Source of the DNA: Pirellulales bacterium
GTDB lineage: Bacteria > Planctomycetota > Planctomycetia > Pirellulales > JAEUIK01
Reading direction: 5' to 3'
Assembly: GCA_019745975.1 (NCBI GenBank)
Contig: JAIESQ010000114.1
Location: 1 to 52,540, forward strand
DNA length: 52,540 nucleotides
The notes beneath the pieces are model-generated. The model saw only the letters and a program-made list of their open reading frames with translations, was not told where the DNA came from and ran no database searches. Positions within the stretch are counted from its first letter, which is position 1. Every line of letters starts with the position of its first letter. The position numbers and the translations under genes were made by a program. This document shows, piece by piece, positions 2,725 to 13,363 of this stretch.

Positions 2725-2846
2725 GACAACATCATCCGAATCGGCGGCGAGTGGCGCGCCAATTCACAAGGCGGCGCGCATGCGGGAATTGAACATCGCG
2801 GGCCGCGGAATGCAATGGCCCGCGTCGATGCTTGGGCTCGCGCCAG

Positions 2847-2919
2847 GGGGACGGGAGTCGTTCCCGTCCAACGTCGTCACTAGCGAGTAGATCGAAGCCT
2901 GGAAACGACTCCCGTCCCC
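2847..2919 (-). terminator. Hairpin with 16-bp perfect arms after the first S49 gene
   Basis: GGGGACGGGAGTCGTT (2847-2862) is the exact reverse complement of AACGACTCCCGTCCCC (2904-2919), with a 41-base loop. It lies just downstream of the S49 stop and upstream of the FAH start, so a terminator role is plausible. There is no clear T-run, and the sequence looks like a dispersed repeat. Confidence 0.45.
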
Positions 2920-2935
2920 TGCAACGCTGCCACGC

Positions 2936-4372
2936 TTAGCGCCCGCTGAGTTTTTCGAGCATGGGCTCGGGTTGCCACATGAAGAGAAACATTGGCAACC
3001 TCGTCCGCTCGCGACCGGGCGTGCTGAAGGGGAGGATGCCGGCCCCCTGCAACGGCACGTTGGGGGTGATGGCATACGGCGAGCGCGCGGGGTCGTTCTT
3101 GCGGTGATAAAAGACGACCATCGCACCGTTGAGCCCGGCCATGCCTTCGGCGATGTGAATTGCTTCGTCGAGGTAGCCGATCTCGTCGATCAGGCCGCGC
3201 TGCTGCGATTGCGTCGCGGTGAAGACGCGCCCGTCGAAATCGGTGTCGAGCTCGGCATCGTTCAGCGGCCGGGCGGCGATCACTGCTTCGCGGAATCGCT
3301 GATGAAAGTCGTTGGCCATCGTTTGCAGCAGCGCTCGTTTCTCTTTGGTGAAGCCGGTGCCACCTTCGGGCGAGAGCGGCTCGCCGATCGCGGCCGGGTC
3401 GCGGGCCTCGTCGCTGGCACGGCTGTCGCCGTCATCGCCGCCGCCTTCGGGCAGGGCTTCGTCGGGAGGCGGGATCGCTTCGGCACCCTCCTCGGTTGGC
3501 TCGGCGGTCGCTTCGTCGTCGGTCGGCTGCAGGATGATGCTGCCCATGTCGATGTTGGGGCCCGAAACGATATTCCGCGGAAAGACCGATTGGGCTCCCA
3601 TGGCGTCGTACAGACCGTAGAGATTCAGAATCACGCCGATGCCGCCCGTGATGCTGGTCGGATGCGCGACGATCGTGTCGGCGGCGGTCGCCAGGTAGTA
3701 CGCGCCGCCGGTGCCAACGTCGAGGATGCAGGCGACGACGGGGACGCCAGACCGTTCTTTGTACGCCACGAGATCGTGCCGCATGATGTCGCTGGCCGCG
3801 GCGCCACCGCCTGGGCTGTTGATGCGCAGCACGACTGCGCGCACGCACGGATCGGCGGCGGCCGCCTCGAGCTTTTCGCGGAACAGCGACACGGGGTTCT
3901 CGCCGTGCGACAGCGGACCGACCATGTCGGCGTTCAGCAGCAGGCCATCGACGTCGATGACCGCGACGCGGCACCCTTCGCAATGGCCTGTGAGCGGAAT
4001 CCGGTTGGGCACGACCGGCGAAATGTTGTTCTGCGGCGGAGCTTCGTTGACGATGCGGCCGCTGGTGCACATCCGCATTGTGACGCTGCAATGTTTGCAG
4101 CCGCTCGCCAGGCTCAACAAGGCCAGCGCGACCACCACGATGCCGCGTCGCGTCGCGAGCGCGGGATCACGCTGCGCGCAGCCGGTGCCACGGACGATGC
4201 GTAACTTGCTTCCAAATAGCTTCAAAACCAGCATTGAGCTGACGTCGGGTGCCACTGCTAGCTCGTCTAGCAGTGCCGTGTCGAAGTTTGCACTGCTGGG
4301 CAAGCCAGCAGTGGCACCCATACCAGGTTTTGAAACTGCTTCTCGTTGACTGCTCGGCACGGCTCGACTCAT
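2936..4372 (-). CDS. S49 (SppA-like) lipoprotein, divergent paralogue 1
   Basis: The conserved part resembles the signal-peptide-peptidase (SppA, S49, ClpP/crotonase fold) family. A hydrophobic stretch ending in the lipobox LASGC (Cys92) suggests an exported lipoprotein. It is a clear paralogue of the next gene, sharing RINSPGG, SHGENPVSLFREKL and TGGIGVILNLY. Where canonical SppA has Ser (A-S-G-G-Y-Y) this copy reads G-T-G-G-A-Y-Y, and the usual G-x-x-K-D lysine is Ile (GPNID). It carries an acidic insert of about 65 residues absent from the paralogue. The start is chosen for an AGGA about 9 bases upstream. About 45 early residues come from a palindromic repeat, so residue 47 (4234) is an alternative start. 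Confidence 0.8.
   Translation of the reverse strand: MSRAVPSSQREAVSKPGMGATAGLPSSANFDTALLDELAVAPDVSSMLVLKLFGSKLRIVRGTGCAQRDPALATRRGIVVVALALLSLASGCKHCSVTMRMCTSGRIVNEAPPQNNISPVVPNRIPLTGHCEGCRVAVIDVDGLLLNADMVGPLSHGENPVSLFREKLEAAAADPCVRAVVLRINSPGGGAAASDIMRHDLVAYKERSGVPVVACILDVGTGGAYYLATAADTIVAHPTSITGGIGVILNLYGLYDAMGAQSVFPRNIVSGPNIDMGSIILQPTDDEATAEPTEEGAEAIPPPDEALPEGGGDDGDSRASDEARDPAAIGEPLSPEGGTGFTKEKRALLQTMANDFHQRFREAVIAARPLNDAELDTDFDGRVFTATQSQQRGLIDEIGYLDEAIHIAEGMAGLNGAMVVFYHRKNDPARSPYAITPNVPLQGAGILPFSTPGRERTRLPMFLFMWQPEPMLEKLSGR
4212..4346. repeat. Twin-hairpin palindromic element, copy A
   Basis: The core inner arms are GGGTGCCACTGCT (4247-4259) and AGCAGTGGCACCC (4307-4319), a perfect 13-bp inverted repeat. 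Inside are two local hairpins, CACTGCTAG-CTCGT-CTAGCAGTG and CACTGCTGG-GCAAG-CCAGCAGTG. The outer ends TTCAAAACC and GGTTTTGAA match the terminal repeats of copy B. The element lies in frame within the N-terminal coding region of the first S49 gene, upstream of its lipobox. Confidence 0.88.
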
Positions 4373-4423
4373 GTCCCTATTTCCTGCGATGTTCTCGATC
4401 TGGCGCGAATGGCCATTGCCGCG

Positions 4424-5467
4424 TTAGTGTCCGCCGAGTTTTTCGAGCGTCGGCTCGGGCTGCCACAGGTACAAGAGCGCCGGCAAGCGGGTGCGATCCA
4501 TGCCGGGCATGCCGGGCAGGATCGAGCCGCCTTGCAGCGGCACATTTGGTGTCACGGCATAGAGTGAGCGCGGCGGATCGTTGCAGCGGTGGTACAAGAC
4601 GACGTGCGCGCCGTGGATGCCGGCCAAACCTTCGGCGGCGGCGACGGCGTCGTCGAGGTAGCCGATCTCGTCGATCAAGCCGCGGTCGTGCGCTTGCTGG
4701 GCGGTGAAGATGCGGCCATCGAAGTTGGTTTCGTCGTCGGCGTTGGCCAGCGGTCGCGACTCGATCACGGCCGCGCGGAAGCGGCGATGCATCTCGTTGG
4801 CCATCTCTTGGAGCAAGCGGCGCTTTTCCTCGGGGAGCGGGACCATGCCGCTTCCCAGGTCGATGTTCTCGCCGGCTTTGACCGAGAGGTTGTAGACGCG
4901 TCCCTGGCTCTCGGCCATGGCGCCGGTGACGTCGTAGAGGTTCAGGATCACGCCGATGCCGCCGGTGATGGTGATCGGATTGGCGACGATCAGGTCGGCG
5001 GCCGTCGCCAGGTAGTAGGCGCCGCTGGCGCCGACGTCCAACAAGCAGGCGACGACCGGCCGCTGCGCGCGGCTTTTGAAGGCTTCAAGATCGTGTCGCA
5101 TGATGTCGGTCGCGGTGACGCTCCCGCCGGGGCTGTTGATGCGCACGACGACCGCGCGCACGCAGGGATCGGCGGCGGCCGCGTCGAGCTTTTCGCGGAA
5201 CAGCGACACCGGGTTCTCGCCATGCGACGACGGGCCGACCATGTCCATGTTCAAGAGCAAGCCGTCGACGTCGATGATCGCGATGCGCTGGCCCGACTCG
5301 GTCCCCGTGTTGAGCACCTGGCGCGGCTGCACGGGCGAAATATTGTTTTGCGGCGGCGAGTCGGCCACGATTCGCCCCGAAGTGCGCATCTGAATCGGAT
5401 TGCGGCAGCCTGCCACGGCGCTGGCGATGGCCAGCCAGCAGGCAACCTTCCACAGCGGGCGGAGCAT
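4424..5467 (-). CDS. S49 (SppA-like) lipoprotein, paralogue 2
   Basis: This 347-aa protein starts with a textbook lipoprotein signal, MLRPLWKVAC... ending in AVAGC (Cys21), so it is probably membrane-anchored outside the cytoplasm. The S49 core is seen as RINSPGG (about 110-115), DVGASGAYY with Ser148 at the position of the SppA nucleophile, and TGGIGVILNLY. The lysine expected in G-x-x-K-D is missing (AGENIDLGS has Ile), so it may be inactive or use another general base. It lies just upstream of its paralogue in a tandem duplication. The intergenic distance of about 50 bases suggests co-transcription. Confidence 0.83.
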   Translation of the reverse strand: MLRPLWKVACWLAIASAVAGCRNPIQMRTSGRIVADSPPQNNISPVQPRQVLNTGTESGQRIAIIDVDGLLLNMDMVGPSSHGENPVSLFREKLDAAAADPCVRAVVVRINSPGGSVTATDIMRHDLEAFKSRAQRPVVACLLDVGASGAYYLATAADLIVANPITITGGIGVILNLYDVTGAMAESQGRVYNLSVKAGENIDLGSGMVPLPEEKRRLLQEMANEMHRRFRAAVIESRPLANADDETNFDGRIFTAQQAHDRGLIDEIGYLDDAVAAAEGLAGIHGAHVVLYHRCNDPPRSLYAVTPNVPLQGGSILPGMPGMDRTRLPALLYLWQPEPTLEKLGGH

Positions 5468-5739
5468 CCGTGCGATCCCTCGTTGGAGGTCCGATTGGCG
5501 CGGTCAGCCAAAGGCGACCGTTCGTGACGAGCGTGCCACCTATAACGGGCGTATCGGCTGGATCGGTTATTCCGATGAGTCGGCATGCCAACGATTTACA
5601 TCGCTCCCCGCAAACTCAACGCAATTGATACGGTCGCGTCGATAAGGCTTGCCTGACCGGAAAAGTTGTGCTGGCAGGGGCTGGGCTTCGGGCGGCGAAG
5701 GTGTTTGCCAGCACTGGCTGCTGGCGCAATACTGCCGCC

Positions 5740-7377
5740 ATGACCAGCCGGGATGACTCCGACCGCCGCGACAATCTCGAACTGGCCCACTTCGGCTACC
5801 GGCAACAGCTCGCCCGCACCATGGGGGGCTTCTCGAGCTTCGCTGTCAGCTTCTCGTTGATCTCGATCACGACGGGCATCTTTACGAACTTTGGACATGG
5901 GCTGCGGCACGCCGGGCCGGCGGTCATCTGGTCGTGGACTGTCGCGGTCATCGGACAATTTCTGGTAGCGCTCGTCGTCGCCGAATTGGCCAACCACATG
6001 CCGCTCTCCGGCTATGGATATCAGTGGGCGTCACGACTCGTCGGGCCGGGGTACGGGTTCTTTGTCGGCTGGTTGCTGCTGTTGCAGTGGTTGACCGGCT
6101 TTCCGGGCATTTGTTACGGGCTCGCCCGCGAGCTGCATTCGTTCGTGAGCGGCTATCTGGCGAGCCCAAGCGACATGCCGGTGGGACCAGCGGGGCTGAC
6201 GGCCGTGGTGATCGCCGCGATTGCCGTCGTGCATCTCTTTGGCATACGGTTGGCGGCGCTGGTCAACGACTTGGGCGTGCTCGCCGAAATCGCTGGTGCT
6301 GTACTGATCGTCGTGGTGCTGTTGGGAATCTGGTTGATCGCCGGCGGACAACACTCGAACTTTCTGTTCGACTCGACCAGTTACACAACCGCCGCGCCGG
6401 CCAACTGGCACGGTTGGGCGTTGTCGCTGCTGTTGGGGGCGTGGTGCATTACGGGGTTTGAGGGGGCCGCCGATTTGGCCGAGGAAACGCATCGGCCGCG
6501 CGCGACGGTCCCGCGCGCGGTGATTATGTCGGAGTTGAGTTCGGGCATCGGCGGGTTCTTGATGCTGGCGGCGTTTCTGTTGTCGATCGAAGGCTTGCGC
6601 GAGACACAGGCCAGCGCGTCGCCGCTGTTGTTGATCATCCAAGCGAAGCTGGGGGATCGCTTCACGCCGCTAGTGATGTTTGTCGTATTCGTATCGATCT
6701 TCGCTTGCGGCGTGGCGAGCATGGCGGCCGCGACCCGCCTGGTGTTTGCGCTGGCACGCGACAACATGCTCCCCGGCTCGCGGGTGCTCAAGCGCGTTGA
6801 GGCGGTGCATGGTGCGCCGCGCGCGGCGATCTTGCTGGTCTGGCTGCTATCGACAGGAATTGTGCTGGCGCTAGAACGAAGCGGCGTGCTGATGTTCATC
6901 ACGTCGATCGCGACTTTGGCGGGCTACTTGGGCTACGGAGGGATCGTGCTGGCCGCGATCTTGGGGTTGACGTCTCGCCAGGACGCGTCACCGGTCGCGG
7001 CGTTAAACGAGGCGGGTGTCGCTGCGACATCCCAGCGCGGCTTCAAGCTCGGTCGTTGGCGCGGGCCAGTCTGCTGGGGGGCACTTGTTTGGACGGTGTT
7101 ATTGGTGATCGCGGTGTCGCTACCGATTCACGATGACCAGCCGACAACGAATGCGAGTGCCAGCCCATCAGGCCTGCTGGACCAACTTCGACCGTACGCT
7201 CCCTTGTGCGCGACGAGCGCCTCAATCGGCGCGGGTGTGCTGCTGTTTGTTATGCTGGTGCGGCCAAGGTTGCGTGCTGGCACCGCCGGGCCACCCAACG
7301 ACGTAAGCGACGATCGAACGACCAACATGGCAGCGTCACCGCTTGAAATCATCGAAACGCCGAGACGGATTACCTAA
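5740..7377 (+). CDS. APC-superfamily amino acid permease
   Basis: This protein of about 545 aa has roughly twelve hydrophobic segments and matches the amino acid-polyamine-organocation family. The first membrane helix follows FGYRQQLARTMGGFSSFAVSF, which resembles the N-terminus of the GABA/choline permease branch. The sequence FEGAADLAEETHRPRATVPRA is the family's cytoplasmic loop motif. The start at 5740 (MTSRDD) is preferred over an ATG 24 codons upstream because family similarity begins just after it. The stop overlaps the next gene's start in TAATG, which indicates translational coupling. The substrate cannot be told from sequence. Confidence 0.85.
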   Translation: MTSRDDSDRRDNLELAHFGYRQQLARTMGGFSSFAVSFSLISITTGIFTNFGHGLRHAGPAVIWSWTVAVIGQFLVALVVAELANHMPLSGYGYQWASRLVGPGYGFFVGWLLLLQWLTGFPGICYGLARELHSFVSGYLASPSDMPVGPAGLTAVVIAAIAVVHLFGIRLAALVNDLGVLAEIAGAVLIVVVLLGIWLIAGGQHSNFLFDSTSYTTAAPANWHGWALSLLLGAWCITGFEGAADLAEETHRPRATVPRAVIMSELSSGIGGFLMLAAFLLSIEGLRETQASASPLLLIIQAKLGDRFTPLVMFVVFVSIFACGVASMAAATRLVFALARDNMLPGSRVLKRVEAVHGAPRAAILLVWLLSTGIVLALERSGVLMFITSIATLAGYLGYGGIVLAAILGLTSRQDASPVAALNEAGVAATSQRGFKLGRWRGPVCWGALVWTVLLVIAVSLPIHDDQPTTNASASPSGLLDQLRPYAPLCATSASIGAGVLLFVMLVRPRLRAGTAGPPNDVSDDRTTNMAASPLEIIETPRRIT

Positions 7378-8402
7378 TGGAGATTACCGGTCAGACCAAC
7401 GTTCTTTCGCAGCGCTTCGGCTCCGGAAGCATCGACGGGCTGGGGCGCGAGCTGGGCCAGTTCGTCGTCACTTCGATGGAGATTCCCTGGCGCCTGGTGC
7501 GCGATCGGCTGGGCGCGAAGCCAGCAGCCGTGCTGATGGTCGACTCGCTCGAACTCGACGTCGTCGAGCGCCAGATCGCCGCCGCTCCCCCTTGCGACAC
7601 GGTGCTGGCGGTCGGCGGCGGGCAGGCCATCGACTTGGGCAAGTACATGGCGTTCAAGCGCGGTTGCCGGCTGGTGACGGTACCGACGATCGTGAGTGTC
7701 GATGCCTTCGTGACGCCGAAGGCGGCCGTGCGGCGCAACCATCGCGTCGAGTACCTCGGCGGAGCGAGCCCCGACCCGCTCGTGATCGATTACGATTTGA
7801 TCCGCACGGCGCCGCGGCAATTGAATATCGCCGGCGTGGGGGACCTGTTGTCGATCCACACCGGCACGTTCGACTGGGAACTCGCGCATCGCGCGGGGCG
7901 CGACGCGGCGGAACCCTTTTCGGCTGACGATGTCCGCCGCGCCCGCGATATCCTGCGGCTCGTCGAGGAACACGCCGACGACATTCGCCAGGTGACCGAC
8001 GCCGGTTTGCAGGCGATCGTCGACGGTTACTTGCTCATCAATACGGTTTGCCTGCCGGCGGGCCATTACCGTACCGAAGAGGGCTCGGAGCACTATTTGT
8101 TCTACGAGCTTGAAGAGCGGACGGGCCGCGCGTTCATCCACGGCCAGATCGTGGGGCTGGGAGTCTACCTCTTGAGCCGGCTGCAGGAGAATCGACACGC
8201 TGAAGTCGTTTCCTTGATGGATCGGCTGGGGCTTGAGTACCAGCCGGCCGACATGCAGATCGATCACGATACGCTGGTCGCCTCGTTGACGAATCTGCGA
8301 TCGTACGTCGAATCGCGCGGACTGTGGTACACGGTGATCAATGAGCGACCGATCACGGCCACATGGATTGACGACGCGCTGCGGGGGCTGCGCTTTGCCT
8401 AG
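7377..8402 (+). CDS. Fe-ADH/glycerol-1-phosphate dehydrogenase-like enzyme
   Basis: This 341-aa protein belongs to the dehydroquinate synthase/iron-alcohol dehydrogenase fold and looks closest to the glycerol-1-phosphate dehydrogenase (EgsA/AraM) branch, which reduces dihydroxyacetone phosphate with NAD(P)H. The nucleotide loop is AVGGGQAIDLGK (about 78-89). Likely metal ligands are Asp156 in GVGDLLS, His239 in GSEHYLF and His255 in FIHGQIVGLG, spaced as in that branch. Pairing with an amino acid permease is unexpected for lipid synthesis, so the true substrate may be another polyol or keto compound. A palindromic element begins 18 bases after the stop. Confidence 0.75.
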   Translation: MEITGQTNVLSQRFGSGSIDGLGRELGQFVVTSMEIPWRLVRDRLGAKPAAVLMVDSLELDVVERQIAAAPPCDTVLAVGGGQAIDLGKYMAFKRGCRLVTVPTIVSVDAFVTPKAAVRRNHRVEYLGGASPDPLVIDYDLIRTAPRQLNIAGVGDLLSIHTGTFDWELAHRAGRDAAEPFSADDVRRARDILRLVEEHADDIRQVTDAGLQAIVDGYLLINTVCLPAGHYRTEEGSEHYLFYELEERTGRAFIHGQIVGLGVYLLSRLQENRHAEVVSLMDRLGLEYQPADMQIDHDTLVASLTNLRSYVESRGLWYTVINERPITATWIDDALRGLRFA

Positions 8403-8419
8403 AACCAGCGGCGCATCCT

Positions 8420-8548
8420 CTAGAAGCGGTTTCAAAACCGGCGATGAACCGACGTCGGGTGCCACCGCTAGCTCATCTAACAGTGCCGTGTCAAACATTG
8501 GGGCAAGCCAGCAGTGGCACCCAAACCAGGTTTTGAAACCGCTTCTAG
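8420..8548. repeat. Twin-hairpin palindromic element, copy B, with 20-bp TIRs
   Basis: The ends are perfect 20-bp inverted repeats: CTAGAAGCGGTTTCAAAACC (8420-8439) and GGTTTTGAAACCGCTTCTAG (8529-8548). The core arms GGGTGCCAC (8457-8465) and GTGGCACCC (8514-8522) match copy A, but the left half of the second hairpin is deleted. The CTAG at each end could be terminal sequence or a 4-bp target duplication. The right end overlaps the stop codon of the minus-strand copper-storage gene. No transposase is encoded, so it is MITE- or REP-like. Confidence 0.9.
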
Positions 8549-8913
8549 CGACTAGTGGCACTGACGCGCGTGACTTGCAGGTGAGCGCCGGCCAGTTGGC
8601 GGCATTCATCCGCACAAATCTTGCACGTCCGCGCGCAGCGCTGGCAGTGGCCAAGCGGGTGCTTCGCGCATTCGGCAGCGCAAGCTTCGCAAATCTCGGC
8701 GCACAGCAAGCAGAACTCGTGGCTGAAGTGCGATCCGCGACTTAACAGCGCCGCCACTCCCCAGCAAATCAAAGCGCAATCTTTCACCAGCGCGAGGCAA
8801 TCGGTGAGGTGCGCGACATCACACTCGTTCAGGCAGGCGCTAGCGCAAAACTCACAGACCCGGGCGCACTCGGTACAACTCCTTAGGCACGATTCATAGT
8901 CGGGGTTTGTCAT
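8545..8913 (-). CDS. Four-helix-bundle copper-binding protein (Csp/DUF326-like)
   Basis: This 122-aa protein holds about 20 Cys in repeated C-x2/3-C patterns, for example CLRSCTECARVCEFC and CKICADEC. That is the pattern of cytosolic copper-storage proteins (Csp3 type), four-helix bundles lined with Cys that bind many Cu(I) ions. No signal peptide is seen. The start at 8913 has a GGGAG ribosome site 9 bases upstream. The stop codon falls in the terminal repeat of palindromic element copy B, so the last residues may have changed on insertion. NagA is the upstream neighbour and has no evident copper link. Confidence 0.85.
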   Translation of the reverse strand: MTNPDYESCLRSCTECARVCEFCASACLNECDVAHLTDCLALVKDCALICWGVAALLSRGSHFSHEFCLLCAEICEACAAECAKHPLGHCQRCARTCKICADECRQLAGAHLQVTRVSATSR

Positions 8914-9029
8914 GGCCGATGCTCCCGTTTGCCAGGGCGAACGCCCGCGATGCAAATGTCGCAAATGACGTGCCGGTCGATGGCCGGATGGGGCTGCCCG
9001 ATACCTGGGCGCGTGCCGTGCTACGCGCT

Positions 9030-10163
9030 TTAGAGGGCTTGCCCAGCCAGGAGCGTGGCGCGAACTTCGATCCGCCGTCTGGAGAAGTCGAAGAGGACGA
9101 GGTCGGCCGTATCTCCGGGTTGCAAACGGCCCGGCGGCAGCTCTAGCAACCGGCATGGCTGCGAGGTTGCCAGACCGATCGCCGTCGGCAAATTCAAGTC
9201 GGCGAACTCGATGATGTTCGCCACGCCTTCGGCGATGGTGCGTGATGCCCCGGCCAGCAGTTGATCTTGTCCGGCGATCACCAGCCGGCCGTCGGCCAGC
9301 ACCTCCAGTTCGCAACCGCTCGACTGATAGCGACCTGGCGGCAAACCGGCCAGTCCTGACAGATCGCTGACCAGCACTAGCCGCTCGGGCCCCTTGGCGC
9401 GGACAAACGTTTTGACGACTTCGGGCGGAAGGTGTTGACCATCGACGATCAAACTGGCCCACAAGCGATCTTCGGCCAGTTGATCCCAGAGATAGTTCGG
9501 ATGACGCCGCAGCAGGCGATGGGCACCGTTGCCCAAGTGGGTGCTAAGCCGCGCGCCGGCGTCAACGGCCGCGCGAATCTGCTGGCCCGTGGCGCTCAAA
9601 TGACCCAGAGCCACGCAGATGCCTGCCGAGCTCGCCAGGCGAATAAACGCGGGTGCCTTGGCGTATTCGGGCGAGAGCGTGACGATCGCGATGCGACCGT
9701 CGGCGGCGGCTTGCAGTCTCGCGAATTCTTCCCAGTCGGGAGGCCGACAATGTTCCGCGGGATGCGCGCCGCGCGGACCGTCCTCAGGAGACAGATAGGG
9801 CCCTTCGAGATGAATTCCCACGATCTGCCGCGCAAGCTGAGCCGATTGGCGGCATGCTACCGCGATCGTCCGCACGCCATGCTCGAGCGCTTCGTACGAG
9901 TTGGTCGTGAGCGTCGGGCAGAAACGGGTGACACCGCCGGCCGCGTACGCCGCGGCGATGCGCTCGATCGCGTCGATCGTGAGGTCCGCGGAACTGAACT
10001 CCTGCCCGCCGTAGCCGTTGACCTGGATATCGACAAAGCCGGGAGCGATCCAGAGATGCTCATCCTGTGCTGAGTCCAGCGGGCGGATCGATTCGATGCG
10101 GCCATCGGACAGCGAAAACTCGCACACTCGGCCCGTATCGAAGCGACGGGCAACGAGTTTCAT
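9030..10163 (-). CDS. nagA: N-acetylglucosamine-6-phosphate deacetylase
   Basis: This amidohydrolase of about 377 aa removes acetate from GlcNAc-6-phosphate in amino-sugar and peptidoglycan recycling. The metal site is in APGFVDIQVNG near the N-terminus and in HLEGPYLSPEDGPRGAHP, both typical of NagA. STHLGNGAHRL replaces the usual THLYNAM loop, and VDGQHLPPEV and VLVSDL follow. The C-terminal GDTADLVLFD is the family's closing beta strand. The start at 10163 (MKLVARR) has GAGAA about 10 bases upstream and fits better than an ATG 13 codons earlier. No nagB or transporter is nearby. Confidence 0.87.
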   Translation of the reverse strand: MKLVARRFDTGRVCEFSLSDGRIESIRPLDSAQDEHLWIAPGFVDIQVNGYGGQEFSSADLTIDAIERIAAAYAAGGVTRFCPTLTTNSYEALEHGVRTIAVACRQSAQLARQIVGIHLEGPYLSPEDGPRGAHPAEHCRPPDWEEFARLQAAADGRIAIVTLSPEYAKAPAFIRLASSAGICVALGHLSATGQQIRAAVDAGARLSTHLGNGAHRLLRRHPNYLWDQLAEDRLWASLIVDGQHLPPEVVKTFVRAKGPERLVLVSDLSGLAGLPPGRYQSSGCELEVLADGRLVIAGQDQLLAGASRTIAEGVANIIEFADLNLPTAIGLATSQPCRLLELPPGRLQPGDTADLVLFDFSRRRIEVRATLLAGQAL

Positions 10164-10244
10164 TTGATAGTTCTCGCGTGAAGTTCGCCGGCTACTCAAC
10201 ATGCGTAACGTACGCGCGCCGGCTCAACTTCGATTTCAACAACA

Positions 10245-10272
10245 AAGCCCACCGGTTGCAACCGGTGGGCTT
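10245..10272 (-). terminator. 28-bp perfect palindrome, likely terminator
   Basis: AAGCCCACCGGTTG is followed directly by its reverse complement CAACCGGTGGGCTT. On the minus strand the stem is followed by TTTGTTGTT. It lies downstream of the small secreted-protein gene and upstream of nagA, which suits a Rho-independent terminator for the former. Confidence 0.7.
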
Positions 10273-10325
10273 ATCAGTGTGATCGATCGATGCTGAGGTT
10301 CGCGAAGCGCGCCGCGTCGCAGCGC

Positions 10326-10751
10326 TTACCAGAGCCCGTACGAGTTGCCGGCGCCGTTGCTACGCAACAGGATCAACGGCCGGTACGTGGGATACCAGCG
10401 ATTGAAGTCGCGGCTGCCGCCGAAGGCCGGGCCGTACGTGCCCCCCATGAAGGGCGTGTATTGCGTGGTGGGGCGCGAGTTGTAGATGCCAAACCAGGCC
10501 GACGACTCGATGCGGGCGTGGCGCTGGGCCGCCTTGAACTCGGCTCGGCGACGAACCATGGCGTGCGGATCCTGAAATTGTCGCAGCTCCTGCTGGTAGA
10601 ACCACATCTCGGGAGTGGGCGTCAATTCGCCCATCGATATGTCGCCACCGTAAATGAGCGGCTTGCGGCCGGTCTCTTGGGCTGTGGTTGGTATGGCGAT
10701 CACAGAGTTCAACGCGCCCAGCGCGGCGAATAACAGCAAGCGATATCGCAT
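10326..10751 (-). CDS. Small secreted protein of unknown function
   Basis: I do not recognise this 141-aa protein. It starts with a clear signal peptide (MRYRLLLFAALGALNS, probable cleavage near AIPTTAQ), so it should be exported. The mature part is rich in aromatic residues and Arg/Gly, with motifs such as PEMWFYQQELRQF and YGPAFGGSRDFNRWYP, and has no Cys pairs or membrane segments. The start at 10751 is chosen because the charged n-region begins there; an upstream in-frame ATG adds five residues. A strong hairpin follows the gene, which supports a monocistronic unit. Confidence 0.6.
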   Translation of the reverse strand: MRYRLLLFAALGALNSVIAIPTTAQETGRKPLIYGGDISMGELTPTPEMWFYQQELRQFQDPHAMVRRRAEFKAAQRHARIESSAWFGIYNSRPTTQYTPFMGGTYGPAFGGSRDFNRWYPTYRPLILLRSNGAGNSYGLW

Positions 10752-10948
10752 CGATGGTTCCCCCAAACAACTTGCGGGCGGCGCACGGTAGTCTGCGATC
10801 CGAGGTCATGCCCCGGTGCAAGTATTGCTTGCACAGCACGACGGGCGCGCAGCCGACGCTCCGCTGGCGATACTCCTCAAGCGCCATCGACCGCATCGGG
10901 GGGACGAGTTGAGCCGATTCTACGGAATGCCAGCCTCGGCATGGCGAT

Positions 10949-13363
10949 CTACAGCATGCCCAACGGGTCGACGTCGGCGGTCCATTGCACGTCGGTAGGG
11001 GGATCGAGTCCGGCCATGGCGCGGCGCAGCACATCGCGCAAGCGGTCGCTGTCGGCCCCTTGCAGCAACAGGTGAAAGCGCAATTCGCCGCGCAGTTTGG
11101 CGATCGGCGCCGGGGCGGGTCCGAGCACCCGCACTTGTGTATCTCTTGAATCCGACGCTGTTTGCCTGGGTGCCACTGGCGGCTTGCCCAGCAGTGCAGG
11201 ACTCGATTGGGCACTGCTAGACGAGCTAGCAGTGGCACCCGACGCCAGGCAATCGCCGGTGGGTTGATCCACAAGCGCCTTGGCCGCGGTCCGCAGCCGC
11301 TCGGCGGCTTGTCCGGCAAAATCGCGCGTGACATCTTCCAGCGGCCCGCGAAACAGCACGCGAATCAACTTGCCGAACGGCGGGTAGCCCAAGTCGCGGC
11401 GCACCTCGAGCTCCACCTTGGCGAACCCTTCGTAGTCGTGCCGCACCGCCGCGTCGATCGAAGGGTGGTGCGGGTTGAGCGTTTGCACGAGCACGTGCCC
11501 CCCCTTGGCGCCACGACCTGTCCGCCCGGCAACTTGCGAGAGAAGTTGAAAGGCCCGTTCCGCCGCGCGAAAGTCGGGCAAGTGAATCGCGGTGTCGGCG
11601 TTGACGACCCCCACGAGCGTCACGTTGGGGAAGTCGAGCCCCTTGGCGATCATTTGGGTGCCCAGCAGGATCTGCACATCACCTTCGCGAAAGGCCGCCA
11701 GCGCTCGCTCGTGCGCGCCGGCGCCGCGCATGGCGTCGGTATCCATCCGCAGGGCTTTGTAGTTGGGGAAACGCGCGCGAACTTCGGCCTCGAGCCGCTC
11801 AGTCCCCAGCCCCGAATAGCGGATGCCAGCGAAACCGCACTCCGGGCATTCGTCGGGAGCGGGCACTTGATAGTCGCAGTAATGGCACAACGCCGTGTCG
11901 TCTTGCCGATGATGCGTCAGAGCAATATCGCATTGCGGGCAGCGCAGCACGGCGGCACACGACGGGCATTGAATGTAGGTCGAATAGCCACGGCGATTGA
12001 GGAACAGAATGACCTGCCCCCCTTCGCCGAGTGCTTTTTCCATGGCGCGACCCAGCGGCCGGCTGATTGCCCAGCGGGTACCGCGAGCTTGCCGCTCGTT
12101 GGCCAGATCGATTGTCATCACTCGCGGCAGCGGCAGATCGAGGACGCGCTGCGGCAGTTCGAGCAGGCGGTAGTGGCCAGTCTGCGCCTGGTGCCAGGTT
12201 TCGAGCGAAGGGGTTGCGGAACCGAGCAGGAGCGGAATTCGCTCATCCGTGGCCCGACGCAGCGCGACCTCTCGAGCATGATAGCGCGGCACGGTCTCTT
12301 GCTTGAACGACGGCTCGTGCTCTTCGTCGAGCACGATCAATCCCAACTGAGGAGTGGGCGCGAAAACGGCGCTGCGCGCGCCGACGACAACCTGCACCTG
12401 GCCGCTGGCGATCTGTTCCCAGTGCCAGTGCCGCTCGGCATCGGTCAAATGGCTGTGCAGCACGGCCACCGAATCGAAGCGGCGGCTAAACCGCTCGACC
12501 GTCTGTGGCGTGAGACTGATCTCGGGAACCAGCACGATCGCCTGGCGACCGTACGAGACAACTTCTTGAATAGCACGAATGTAGACTTCGGTCTTGCCGC
12601 TCCCCGTGACACCGTGCAACAACAGCGCTTCGTGCTGGCCAGAGCGTAATGCGGCCAGGATCGCATCGAGTGCTTGCTGTTGCTGGGCGTTGAGCGTCAA
12701 GTCGTCGGCACGCGCGGGCTTCGCGCGTAAATTGGGGGGGAGATGTACGCGCTTCGATTGCCGCACGATCAGTCCGCGTTTGCGCAGCGCGGTGATCGGG
12801 GCGAACGTGCAGCCAGCCGCGGCGGCGACGTCTTGCGGCGGCAGCGGGCCGTCGGCGGCCGCCAACACGTCGAGCACCGCACGCTGCTTTTTCGAGAGCT
12901 CCAACTCGACAAGTTGTTCTGGCACGCCGGGAGCCAAGGCCAGGAAGATCGCGGCGCGCGTGCCAGCCTGATCGCGCACGCCGGAGGGCAATACCGCGTC
13001 GAAGACTTGCCCCAGGCTCGCCAGGTAGTAGTCGGCCATCCACCGCGTGAGCCGCAGCATGGCAGGCGAAAGCAACGCGCGGCGATCGAGCACACTGCCG
13101 ATCGATTTGAGGCGGCGACCCGTCGAGCGTTTCGGCCCCACCTCGACGCAGTACCCCACCTGCTGCCGGTCGCCGCGACCGAAGGGAACGCGCAGCCGGC
13201 GCCCCACCTCGACCTCGGCGGCGAAGGCATCGGGCACGAGGTAGTCGAACGACTGCGGCGGGCCCGTGGGAAAAACGACCGACGCCACGAGCCGTTCCTC
13301 GGCGTCGTCAGCCTCCCAGGGCATGTCGGACGATATGAATAGCTGTTGTTGCTGCTCGATCAT
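10949..13363 (-). CDS. priA: Primosomal protein N', replication restart helicase
   Basis: PriA is a 3'-5' helicase that recognises stalled forks and reloads the replisome. The N-terminal DNA-binding part carries FDYLVPD and VPFGRG. Walker A is GVTGSGKTE (about residue 249) and Walker B is VLDEEHE (about 343). Eight zinc-binding Cys lie at about 458-500 (CPSCAAVLRCPQC, CHYCDYQVPAPDECPEC). The C-terminal LGYPPFGKLIRVLF and VRVLGPAPAPIAKLRG complete the family. Between these last two, about 30 residues (near 703-733) come from an in-frame palindromic element. The start at 13363 (MIEQQQQ) fits family length, giving 804 aa. It is divergent from nadD. Confidence 0.93.
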   Translation of the reverse strand: MIEQQQQLFISSDMPWEADDAEERLVASVVFPTGPPQSFDYLVPDAFAAEVEVGRRLRVPFGRGDRQQVGYCVEVGPKRSTGRRLKSIGSVLDRRALLSPAMLRLTRWMADYYLASLGQVFDAVLPSGVRDQAGTRAAIFLALAPGVPEQLVELELSKKQRAVLDVLAAADGPLPPQDVAAAAGCTFAPITALRKRGLIVRQSKRVHLPPNLRAKPARADDLTLNAQQQQALDAILAALRSGQHEALLLHGVTGSGKTEVYIRAIQEVVSYGRQAIVLVPEISLTPQTVERFSRRFDSVAVLHSHLTDAERHWHWEQIASGQVQVVVGARSAVFAPTPQLGLIVLDEEHEPSFKQETVPRYHAREVALRRATDERIPLLLGSATPSLETWHQAQTGHYRLLELPQRVLDLPLPRVMTIDLANERQARGTRWAISRPLGRAMEKALGEGGQVILFLNRRGYSTYIQCPSCAAVLRCPQCDIALTHHRQDDTALCHYCDYQVPAPDECPECGFAGIRYSGLGTERLEAEVRARFPNYKALRMDTDAMRGAGAHERALAAFREGDVQILLGTQMIAKGLDFPNVTLVGVVNADTAIHLPDFRAAERAFQLLSQVAGRTGRGAKGGHVLVQTLNPHHPSIDAAVRHDYEGFAKVELEVRRDLGYPPFGKLIRVLFRGPLEDVTRDFAGQAAERLRTAAKALVDQPTGDCLASGATASSSSSAQSSPALLGKPPVAPRQTASDSRDTQVRVLGPAPAPIAKLRGELRFHLLLQGADSDRLRDVLRRAMAGLDPPTDVQWTADVDPLGML
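11162..11252. repeat. Twin-hairpin palindromic element, copy C, inside priA
   Basis: The ends TTGCCTGG (11162-11169) and CCAGGCAA (11245-11252) form an 8-bp inverted repeat. The core arms GGGTGCCACTG (11168-11178) and CAGTGGCACCC (11230-11240) match copies A and B. The orientation is opposite to A and B on the plus strand. Read on the minus strand it encodes in-frame residues such as SGATASSSSSAQSSPALLG within PriA. The end sequences differ from A and B but are still self-complementary. Confidence 0.88.

Follow-up and report, generated by a model that had tools for sequence, protein, structure and literature searches.

A probable REPIN-type mobile element family in a Pirellulales genome, with copies read in frame within protein-coding genes

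Three palindromic elements in a 52,540-nucleotide stretch of a Pirellulales bacterium genome (the window, contig C161 of a 6.98-Mb genome in 204 contigs; Table 1) are probably non-autonomous mobile elements of a REPIN-type family found in one planctomycete order. RAYT transposases most likely move this family, and its landings within genes would be filtered by reading frame and encoded peptide. An earlier note, made from the sequence of the window alone, had likened these elements to REP/BIME sequences and to the palindromic elements of Rickettsia, and the likeness holds: the family has hundreds of copies, RAYT genes carry the same REP, RAYT score and REP count correlate among relatives, and many copies sit in frame within genes.

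The three copies lie where the note had placed them and share the core GGGTGCCACTGCTAGCTCGTCTAGCAGTGC...GCACTGCTGGGCAAGCCAGCAGTGGCACCC, with copy 3 on the opposite strand. All fold more stably than dinucleotide shuffles of themselves (z of -5.9, -8.4 and -4.7 for copies 1, 2 and 3). The twin side-by-side hairpins of the original description, however, appear only as an alternative fold. The lowest-energy prediction is one long hairpin in which the REPs pair together, and the branch point is absent from the covariance model too, which was built on 28 copies. Contact with a coding region, which had been claimed for all three copies, is secure for copy 3, within priA. For copy 1 it depends on the uncertain start of the S49 peptidase gene. 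Copy 2, from which seven bases of the second REP (REP-B) are missing, starts 17 bp past the end of an Fe-ADH-like gene, and its terminal CTAG supplies the TAG stop of a facing open reading frame (8545-9462) that was not called by our own gene caller and has no Pfam match. The window had no match in Rfam at the gathering threshold.

Table 1. Positions of the palindromic elements and associated genes in the window
Feature	Position	Strand	Description
Copy 1	4212..4346	+	Full composite (in order: terminal inverted repeat, REP-A, inverted REP-B, terminal inverted repeat); covariance-model match 4212-4345, 151.5 bits
REP-A of copy 1	4247..4276	+	Hairpin CACTGCTAG/CTAGCAGTG, foot GGGTGC
REP-B of copy 1	4290..4319	-	Inverted hairpin CACTGCTGG/CCAGCAGTG
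Copy 2	8420..8548	+	Composite, outer arms 20/20 bp; covariance-model match 8422-8548, 128 bits
Copy 3	11162..11257	-	Composite, decayed outer arms; covariance-model match 87.6 bits
S49 peptidase gene	2936..4321	-	Overlaps copy 1 at its called 5' end, where the true start is uncertain
priA (primosomal helicase PriA)	10949..13363	-	Host gene of copy 3

The composite element is about 134 bp long in total and consists of two inverted REP hairpins with the foot GGGTGCC, enclosed in additional terminal repeats. From one end, CTAGAAGCAGTTTCAAAACC and a spacer lead to REP-A; a 13-nt spacer separates this from inverted REP-B, which is followed by another spacer and the terminal repeat in mirror image. 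The terminal inverted repeats measure about 20 bp in this genome. Of the 46 matches to the terminal repeat in 1.25 Mb, 44 adjoin REPs (reversed control, 4), and the terminal repeats therefore behave as part of one unit. REPs also occur alone as GGGTGCCACTGCTGGCTTGTCCAGCAGTG, many of them free of mismatches. Across 12 pairs located off genes, identity to the consensus is 98.3% for the REP halves, 78-83% for the terminal repeats and 68-80% for the spacers (middle spacer about 70% versus 98% for the REP), although the REP figure may be inflated by finding copies through their REPs, a procedure that allows 7-8 mismatches in 28 and may miss decayed REPs. The spacing of REP pairs is typical for each genome: 43 in this one, 60 in relative G013 and about 50 in several others. 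The element thus has the form of a REPIN, an inverted REP doublet with a preferred spacing and a spacer less conserved than the REPs. Its conserved foot, GGGTGCC, is not the GTAG tetranucleotide, and a separate family of GTAG-footed REPs is also present in this genome. Nor is there a CGTC foot of the R. conorii type, as solo REPs have varying bases in front of GGGTGCC.

Two further readings of the sequence were dropped. The ACGTC that precedes REP-A in composites had suggested a CGTC-tagged REP, which was ruled out by solo REPs without it and by its restriction to REP-A within composites. A left-arm variant, CATTGA, was considered as a source of start codons; it coincides with the start of a minus-strand gene in 3 of 8 cases versus 4 of 23 for other copies, which is too few.

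Genome-wide, the hairpin pattern (two mismatches allowed) occurs at 358 places versus 19 for a reversed-pattern control; the pattern equals its reverse complement, with every place listed once per strand. A footed 28-mer (three mismatches allowed) has 330 matches versus 0 for the control, which, with a stem of 9 bp, describes a high-copy palindrome in the 20-50-nt range of REPs. The genome search with a covariance model that the note had proposed returned at least 148 matches at E<=0.01 (model R1; six counted as opposite-strand readings of places already matched), a lower bound because 150 of 4788 candidates were scored. The family is therefore large, rather than three copies or a scatter of background words. 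By itself the short word GGGTGCCACTGC occurs in the window at close to its background frequency (13 matches versus 7.9 expected), and the evidence therefore comes from the element as a whole. A sample of 2.05 Mb, composed of the window and 100 stretches of 20 kb taken mostly from the largest contigs, contains 74 elements: 31 pairs, 13 half-recognized composites and 30 solo REPs. Of these, 54 lie outside genes, and the family is in this sample mostly extragenic, as REPs are. One locus (G000:C65:10914-11127) is a tandem of three REPs with a period of 93 bp.

The window contains no RAYT gene, as the note had stated. Of the 15 genome matches to PF01797 (Y1_Tnp), 14 of which exceed the cut-off, none is on contig C161. 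Elsewhere in the genome, where the note had suggested that a TnpA-REP (RAYT) gene be sought, the starts of three related RAYT genes (on contigs C138, C80 and C29) are preceded by the same REP at a distance of about 20-35 bp. An inverted REP also follows the genes on C138 and C80, about 40 bp past their ends, and the C29 gene has two REPs about 550 bp downstream. The RAYT motif reads YVHQNP, and the match to the NCBIfam model REP_Tyr_transpos scores 77.1 bits, below the cut-off of 80. This arrangement, an HUH-Y1 transposase gene flanked by its cognate REP, is that of a RAYT or REPtron.

Similar arrangements are found in relatives, for which 17 RAYT loci were examined and the gene was recognized by our script in 8. 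Inverted copies of this REP bracket the RAYT in G020, G041, G049 and G038 (a variant in G038), two copies in one orientation flank it in G014, and the neighbouring REP is changed in G052, G037 and G019 (upstream only in G019). At least one REP match is present in 31 of 56 relatives, with counts from 0 to hundreds, and the best RAYT score correlates with REP count across the 56 (Spearman 0.55, p = 9 × 10^-6). With cut-offs set post hoc, at least ten REPs are present in 9 of the 12 genomes with a RAYT of at least 150 bits versus 8 of the 44 others (p = 4 × 10^-4). Under cut-offs that are likewise post hoc, G004, G021, G024, G033 and G054 have at least ten REPs and no RAYT match of 90 bits, and G019, G026 and G052 have a RAYT of at least 150 bits and fewer than five REPs.

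Within genes, the element is read in a restricted way. In the 2.05-Mb sample, 20 of the 74 elements (11 solos, 8 pairs and 1 half composite) lie in 17 genes, by the definition that at least 60 bp of gene, as called by our own simple gene caller, is on either side. Landing in genes is far rarer than random (20/74 versus 82.6% coding). All 20 use one frame per strand, which reads as a GATAGLSSSA-type peptide on the REP strand or an ALLDKPAVAP-type peptide on the other. The probability of this bias by chance is about 7 × 10^-9 over open frames, given the favoured frames, and about 5 × 10^-7 over frames free of Cys and Trp; both values are rough because these very data served to choose the favoured frames and some genes hold more than one element. 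A phase-blind coding test that required signal on both sides placed 18 of 98 REPs in genes, and counting REPs singly under a retrained gene model placed 28 of 100; both sets lie entirely in the two favoured frames.

Such in-frame insertion into unrelated genes (20 elements, 17 genes) is the mark of Rickettsia-type elements. Among the host proteins, 14 of 17 have Pfam domains. They include PriA and LeuRS, both expected to be essential or important, as well as MnmA, MreC, E1 and E2 of 2-oxoacid dehydrogenase, a DNA polymerase III alpha-type protein, two PSD1 proteins and others. A preference for genes of replication and repair was considered and set aside: priA and the DNA polymerase III alpha-type gene are among the 17 hosts, but many hosts are unrelated to these functions.

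Copy 3 is in frame within priA and encodes SGATASSSSSAQSSPALLGKPPVAP, ahead of the VLGPAPAP motif in the C-terminal domain of PriA. The open reading frame matches six Pfam families above their cut-offs, and the PriA_C match begins at profile position 35, past the insert. The loop before VLGPAPAP has 47 residues here and 0-6 in 21 of 26 relatives (30 loci were taken, three without sequence; the comparison covers the 26 relatives and our own protein). Five relatives, G014, G013, G030, G018 and G015, have loops of 21-57 residues. That of G013, which belongs to another family, contains a related REP, GGGGTGGCACTGGTGGCTTGCCCACCAGTG, in the same frame (GGTGGLPTSA). The loop of its congener G030 looks, from its sequence, like a decayed version of the G013 REP, and no such REP was seen by eye in the PriA loops of G014, G015 and G018. 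In our own model of the PriA C-terminal region, made with a 26-sequence alignment, the insert is predicted to be disordered (residues 171-200, pLDDT 43-45) between segments of high confidence (86-98 for residues 121-160 and 92-96 for residues 211-260). A sequence search of the PDB aligned PriA on either side and omitted the insert. The C-terminal part of priA has one full match in the genome, and the reading frame continues through the insert. One study (PMC4224334) reports, for the priA of Wolbachia, two palindromic regions that are in frame and resemble Wolbachia elements.

In leuS (L184 10680-11510), two in-frame repeat islands add about 90 and about 50 residues beyond the T. thermophilus enzyme. 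The islands mix GTAG-footed REPs and CCTCTCCCCTCT-like tracts, with GGGTGCC REPs in the first; in a third extra stretch of LeuRS (145-183) no repeat was recognized. For the LeuRS editing domain, the genome contains a single strong family match, followed by a second of 29.6 bits, and the frame continues through the insert. In-frame REPs are also seen in mreC and in neighbouring E1/E2 genes (L093 8361-9446; L095 13500-16959), with GTAG and GGGTGCC REPs together in mreC and E2.

Relatives differ in how often copies lie within genes. In the larger sets, none was in a gene (G013 0/38, G054 0/31 and G018 0/7; 76 of 76 outside genes). In the small sets, G013 (0/4), G053 (0/6) and G020 (0/8) also had none; G038 (2/8) and G049 (1/5) had copies that were all in frame +0; and G018 (2/9) and G054 (2/8) had four, three of them in Cys frames, under models trained on about 15 kb each. 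A strict coding test based on the codon model of our own genome did not repeat the G018 and G054 calls, and at the remaining loci it placed 3 of 90 REPs in genes, all in +0. A scan of named genomes for the exact REP gave at least 80 loci; among those listed, 75 have planctomycete titles, 2 are titled 'bacterium' and 3 Klebsiella. Among the 80 named loci listed, 19 of 149 REPs are in genes (nine in +0, seven in -1, which reads TAGQASSGT, and three in -2) and none is in a Cys or Trp frame. Although TAGQASSGT, a minus-strand frame, seems harmless, our own genome never uses it (0 times versus 7 elsewhere), and amino-acid tolerance may therefore not be the whole cause of the frame bias. The three Klebsiella loci (L343, L347 and L375) carry the exact planctomycete REP under the label Klebsiella pneumoniae isolate TH-08apr19-175, a metagenome-assembled genome (MAG) and possibly a mislabelled bin.

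The note had read the outer ends of the three copies as different in sequence yet self-complementary, and had taken this to indicate selection on structure or a shared insertion mechanism. Copies 1 and 2 instead share one arm family, GTTTCAAAACC...GGTTTTGAAAC, and only copy 3 differs, by decay. Decay is the best reading of the short perfect outer arms of copy 3, and template-switch correction is a possible origin. Selection on structure finds at best weak support in the arms. Among the 61 copies in which both arms are present (window copies 1 and 2 but not copy 3; no core-length filter), pairing is 82.3% versus 81.3% in shuffled arms (p = 0.025) and double changes number 13 versus 8.4 (p = 0.07), with 216 unpaired positions. 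In a count of 44 copies (54 unique pairs before the arm filter; window copies 2 and 3 excluded), the corresponding values are 82.8% versus 81.8% (p = 0.03) and 9 versus 5.6 (p = 0.10), with 140 single changes. The pairing excess may be inheritance, because shuffling ignores the kinship of copies. Compensatory evolution of the outer arms was set aside, as 44 and then 61 copies gave at best a weak excess of double changes.

The ends of the insertion are known at one site only, because the relatives searched include no congener. The hunt for empty sites gave 149 junction-spanning BLAST lines, mainly self-hits, with one useful site. At this site (C184:43678) a composite occupies the loop of a second palindrome family, and with the composite removed the flanks fit empty copies to within about 4 bp. 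Of the features of a MITE, terminal repeats are present, and a target duplication was not recognized at this single site with empty counterparts.

We propose that the unit is a pair of inverted REP hairpins, which here would have been lengthened by the terminal inverted repeats of about 20 bp. The RAYT transposases encoded elsewhere in the genome most likely copy and move the element as folded single strands. It would land widely, and most landings in genes would be lost to purifying selection, the probable cause of the frame bias. The survivors would be those that keep the frame and place a small, flexible peptide free of Cys and Trp in a loop, for example in priA.

An alternative is that the 134-bp composite is a MITE, in which a DDE transposase acts on the terminal inverted repeats and the REP hairpins are passengers. 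The regularity of these repeats and their nearly constant company with REPs would suit this, but we consider it improbable: the REP halves are conserved above the terminal repeats (98% versus about 80%), solo REPs without terminal repeats are common and often identical, and REP pairs are present in many relatives, whereas composite ends were found, among the matches listed (15 candidates per genome), only in our own genome and partly in G024. We see an equally slim chance that the elements persist for a role as folded RNA or DNA, such as terminators, mRNA ends or protein-binding sites, with selection on structure explaining their conservation. The elements do fold strongly, many copies lie between convergent or tandem genes, and paired arm positions are in slight surplus (p = 0.025 and 0.03). 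Against this, arm decay is mostly unpaired (216 unpaired positions versus 13 double changes), REP halves are equally conserved within genes (0.977, n = 8) and outside them (0.983, n = 22), and copy counts differ from 0 to hundreds between relatives.

It is very unlikely indeed that the in-frame copies are gene-calling artefacts or lie in pseudogenes. Our gene caller is simple, and copy 1 illustrates how it may overcall a 5' end, but the two-sided phase-blind test agrees with it, most hosts have Pfam domains, and the frames of leuS and priA cross their inserts in genes with one strong editing-domain match and one full C-terminal match, respectively. Beyond the proposed RAYT-driven movement with filtering in genes, a more speculative reading, which we hold to be rather doubtful, is that REPs build protein linkers in this lineage: several unrelated REP families would enter genes in tolerated frames only, each leaving islands rich in Gly, Ala, Ser and Pro, and these would fall in the same loops of essential enzymes; different REP variants would have entered one PriA loop in different families of the order. 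If so, coding compatibility would be a selected trait of the REP sequence, and REPs would spread through genes as well as between them.

As far as the available text of each source goes, the Pseudomonas REPINs and RAYTs (PMC3116915) resemble the planctomycete system in the inverted doublet, the preferred spacing, REPs conserved above the spacer and a RAYT near the REP. Those REPs were analysed in extragenic space, whereas about a quarter of the planctomycete elements in our sample are in genes; the foot GGGTGCC and the terminal inverted repeats outside the REPs also set the planctomycete elements apart. The GTAG and CGTC REPs with TIRYT (PMC3733652) are alike in occurring in genes of several species, often genes of replication or repair, in REP ends that give TAG stops and in repeats that flank tyrosine transposases, and GTAG families are recorded there in Planctomycetes. 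Unlike these, the solo GGGTGCC REP has neither a GTAG nor a CGTC foot, and the available text of that paper yielded no frame bias, comparison of relatives or common PriA loop. By description, the palindromic elements of Rickettsia (PMC10969869) and Wolbachia (PMC4224334) are similar in their in-frame insertion into unrelated genes. CGTC repeats, including the R. conorii elements, are apparently without a dedicated transposase (PMC3733652, in the portion available), whereas the GGGTGCC family has a RAYT in the same genome. TnpA_Y1 class 3, which the available part of PMC6006769 places principally in Planctomycetes, Acidobacteria and Proteobacteria, likewise comprises Y1 proteins flanked by high-copy atypical secondary structures, but with the foot CnGA and the motif Y----Q, compared with GGGTGCC and YVHQNP for the RAYT here.

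Already known, from the portions of the sources available, are thus the biochemistry of TnpA-REP (PMC8266576), REPINs and RAYTs (PMC3116915), intragenic REPs (PMC3733652), Rickettsia elements (PMC10969869) and the classes of Y1 proteins (PMC6006769). In the open-access library searched we did not find the GGGTGCC family, its composite with terminal repeats, the use of one frame or the common PriA loop. How protein-coding palindromic elements are moved becomes a testable question here, because a matching RAYT is encoded in the same genome and relatives differ in the number of copies within genes. The family also offers a clear case in which mobile DNA adds tolerated stretches to enzymes of expected essential function, LeuRS and PriA among them.

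The second palindrome family has the arms GGGGACGGGAGTCGTTTCCGG...CCGGAAACGACTCCCGTCCCC and a loop that varies. It has a copy in the window (2843-2919) and 40 arms in the 2.05-Mb sample. None of the 40 arms is in a gene versus 26 of 91 REPs (p = 3 × 10^-5; our own sample), a comparison in which n is overstated because the arms are paired. One copy of this family adjoins a Y1 transposase gene (L023), and the family recalls the terminal repeats reported beside tyrosine transposases.
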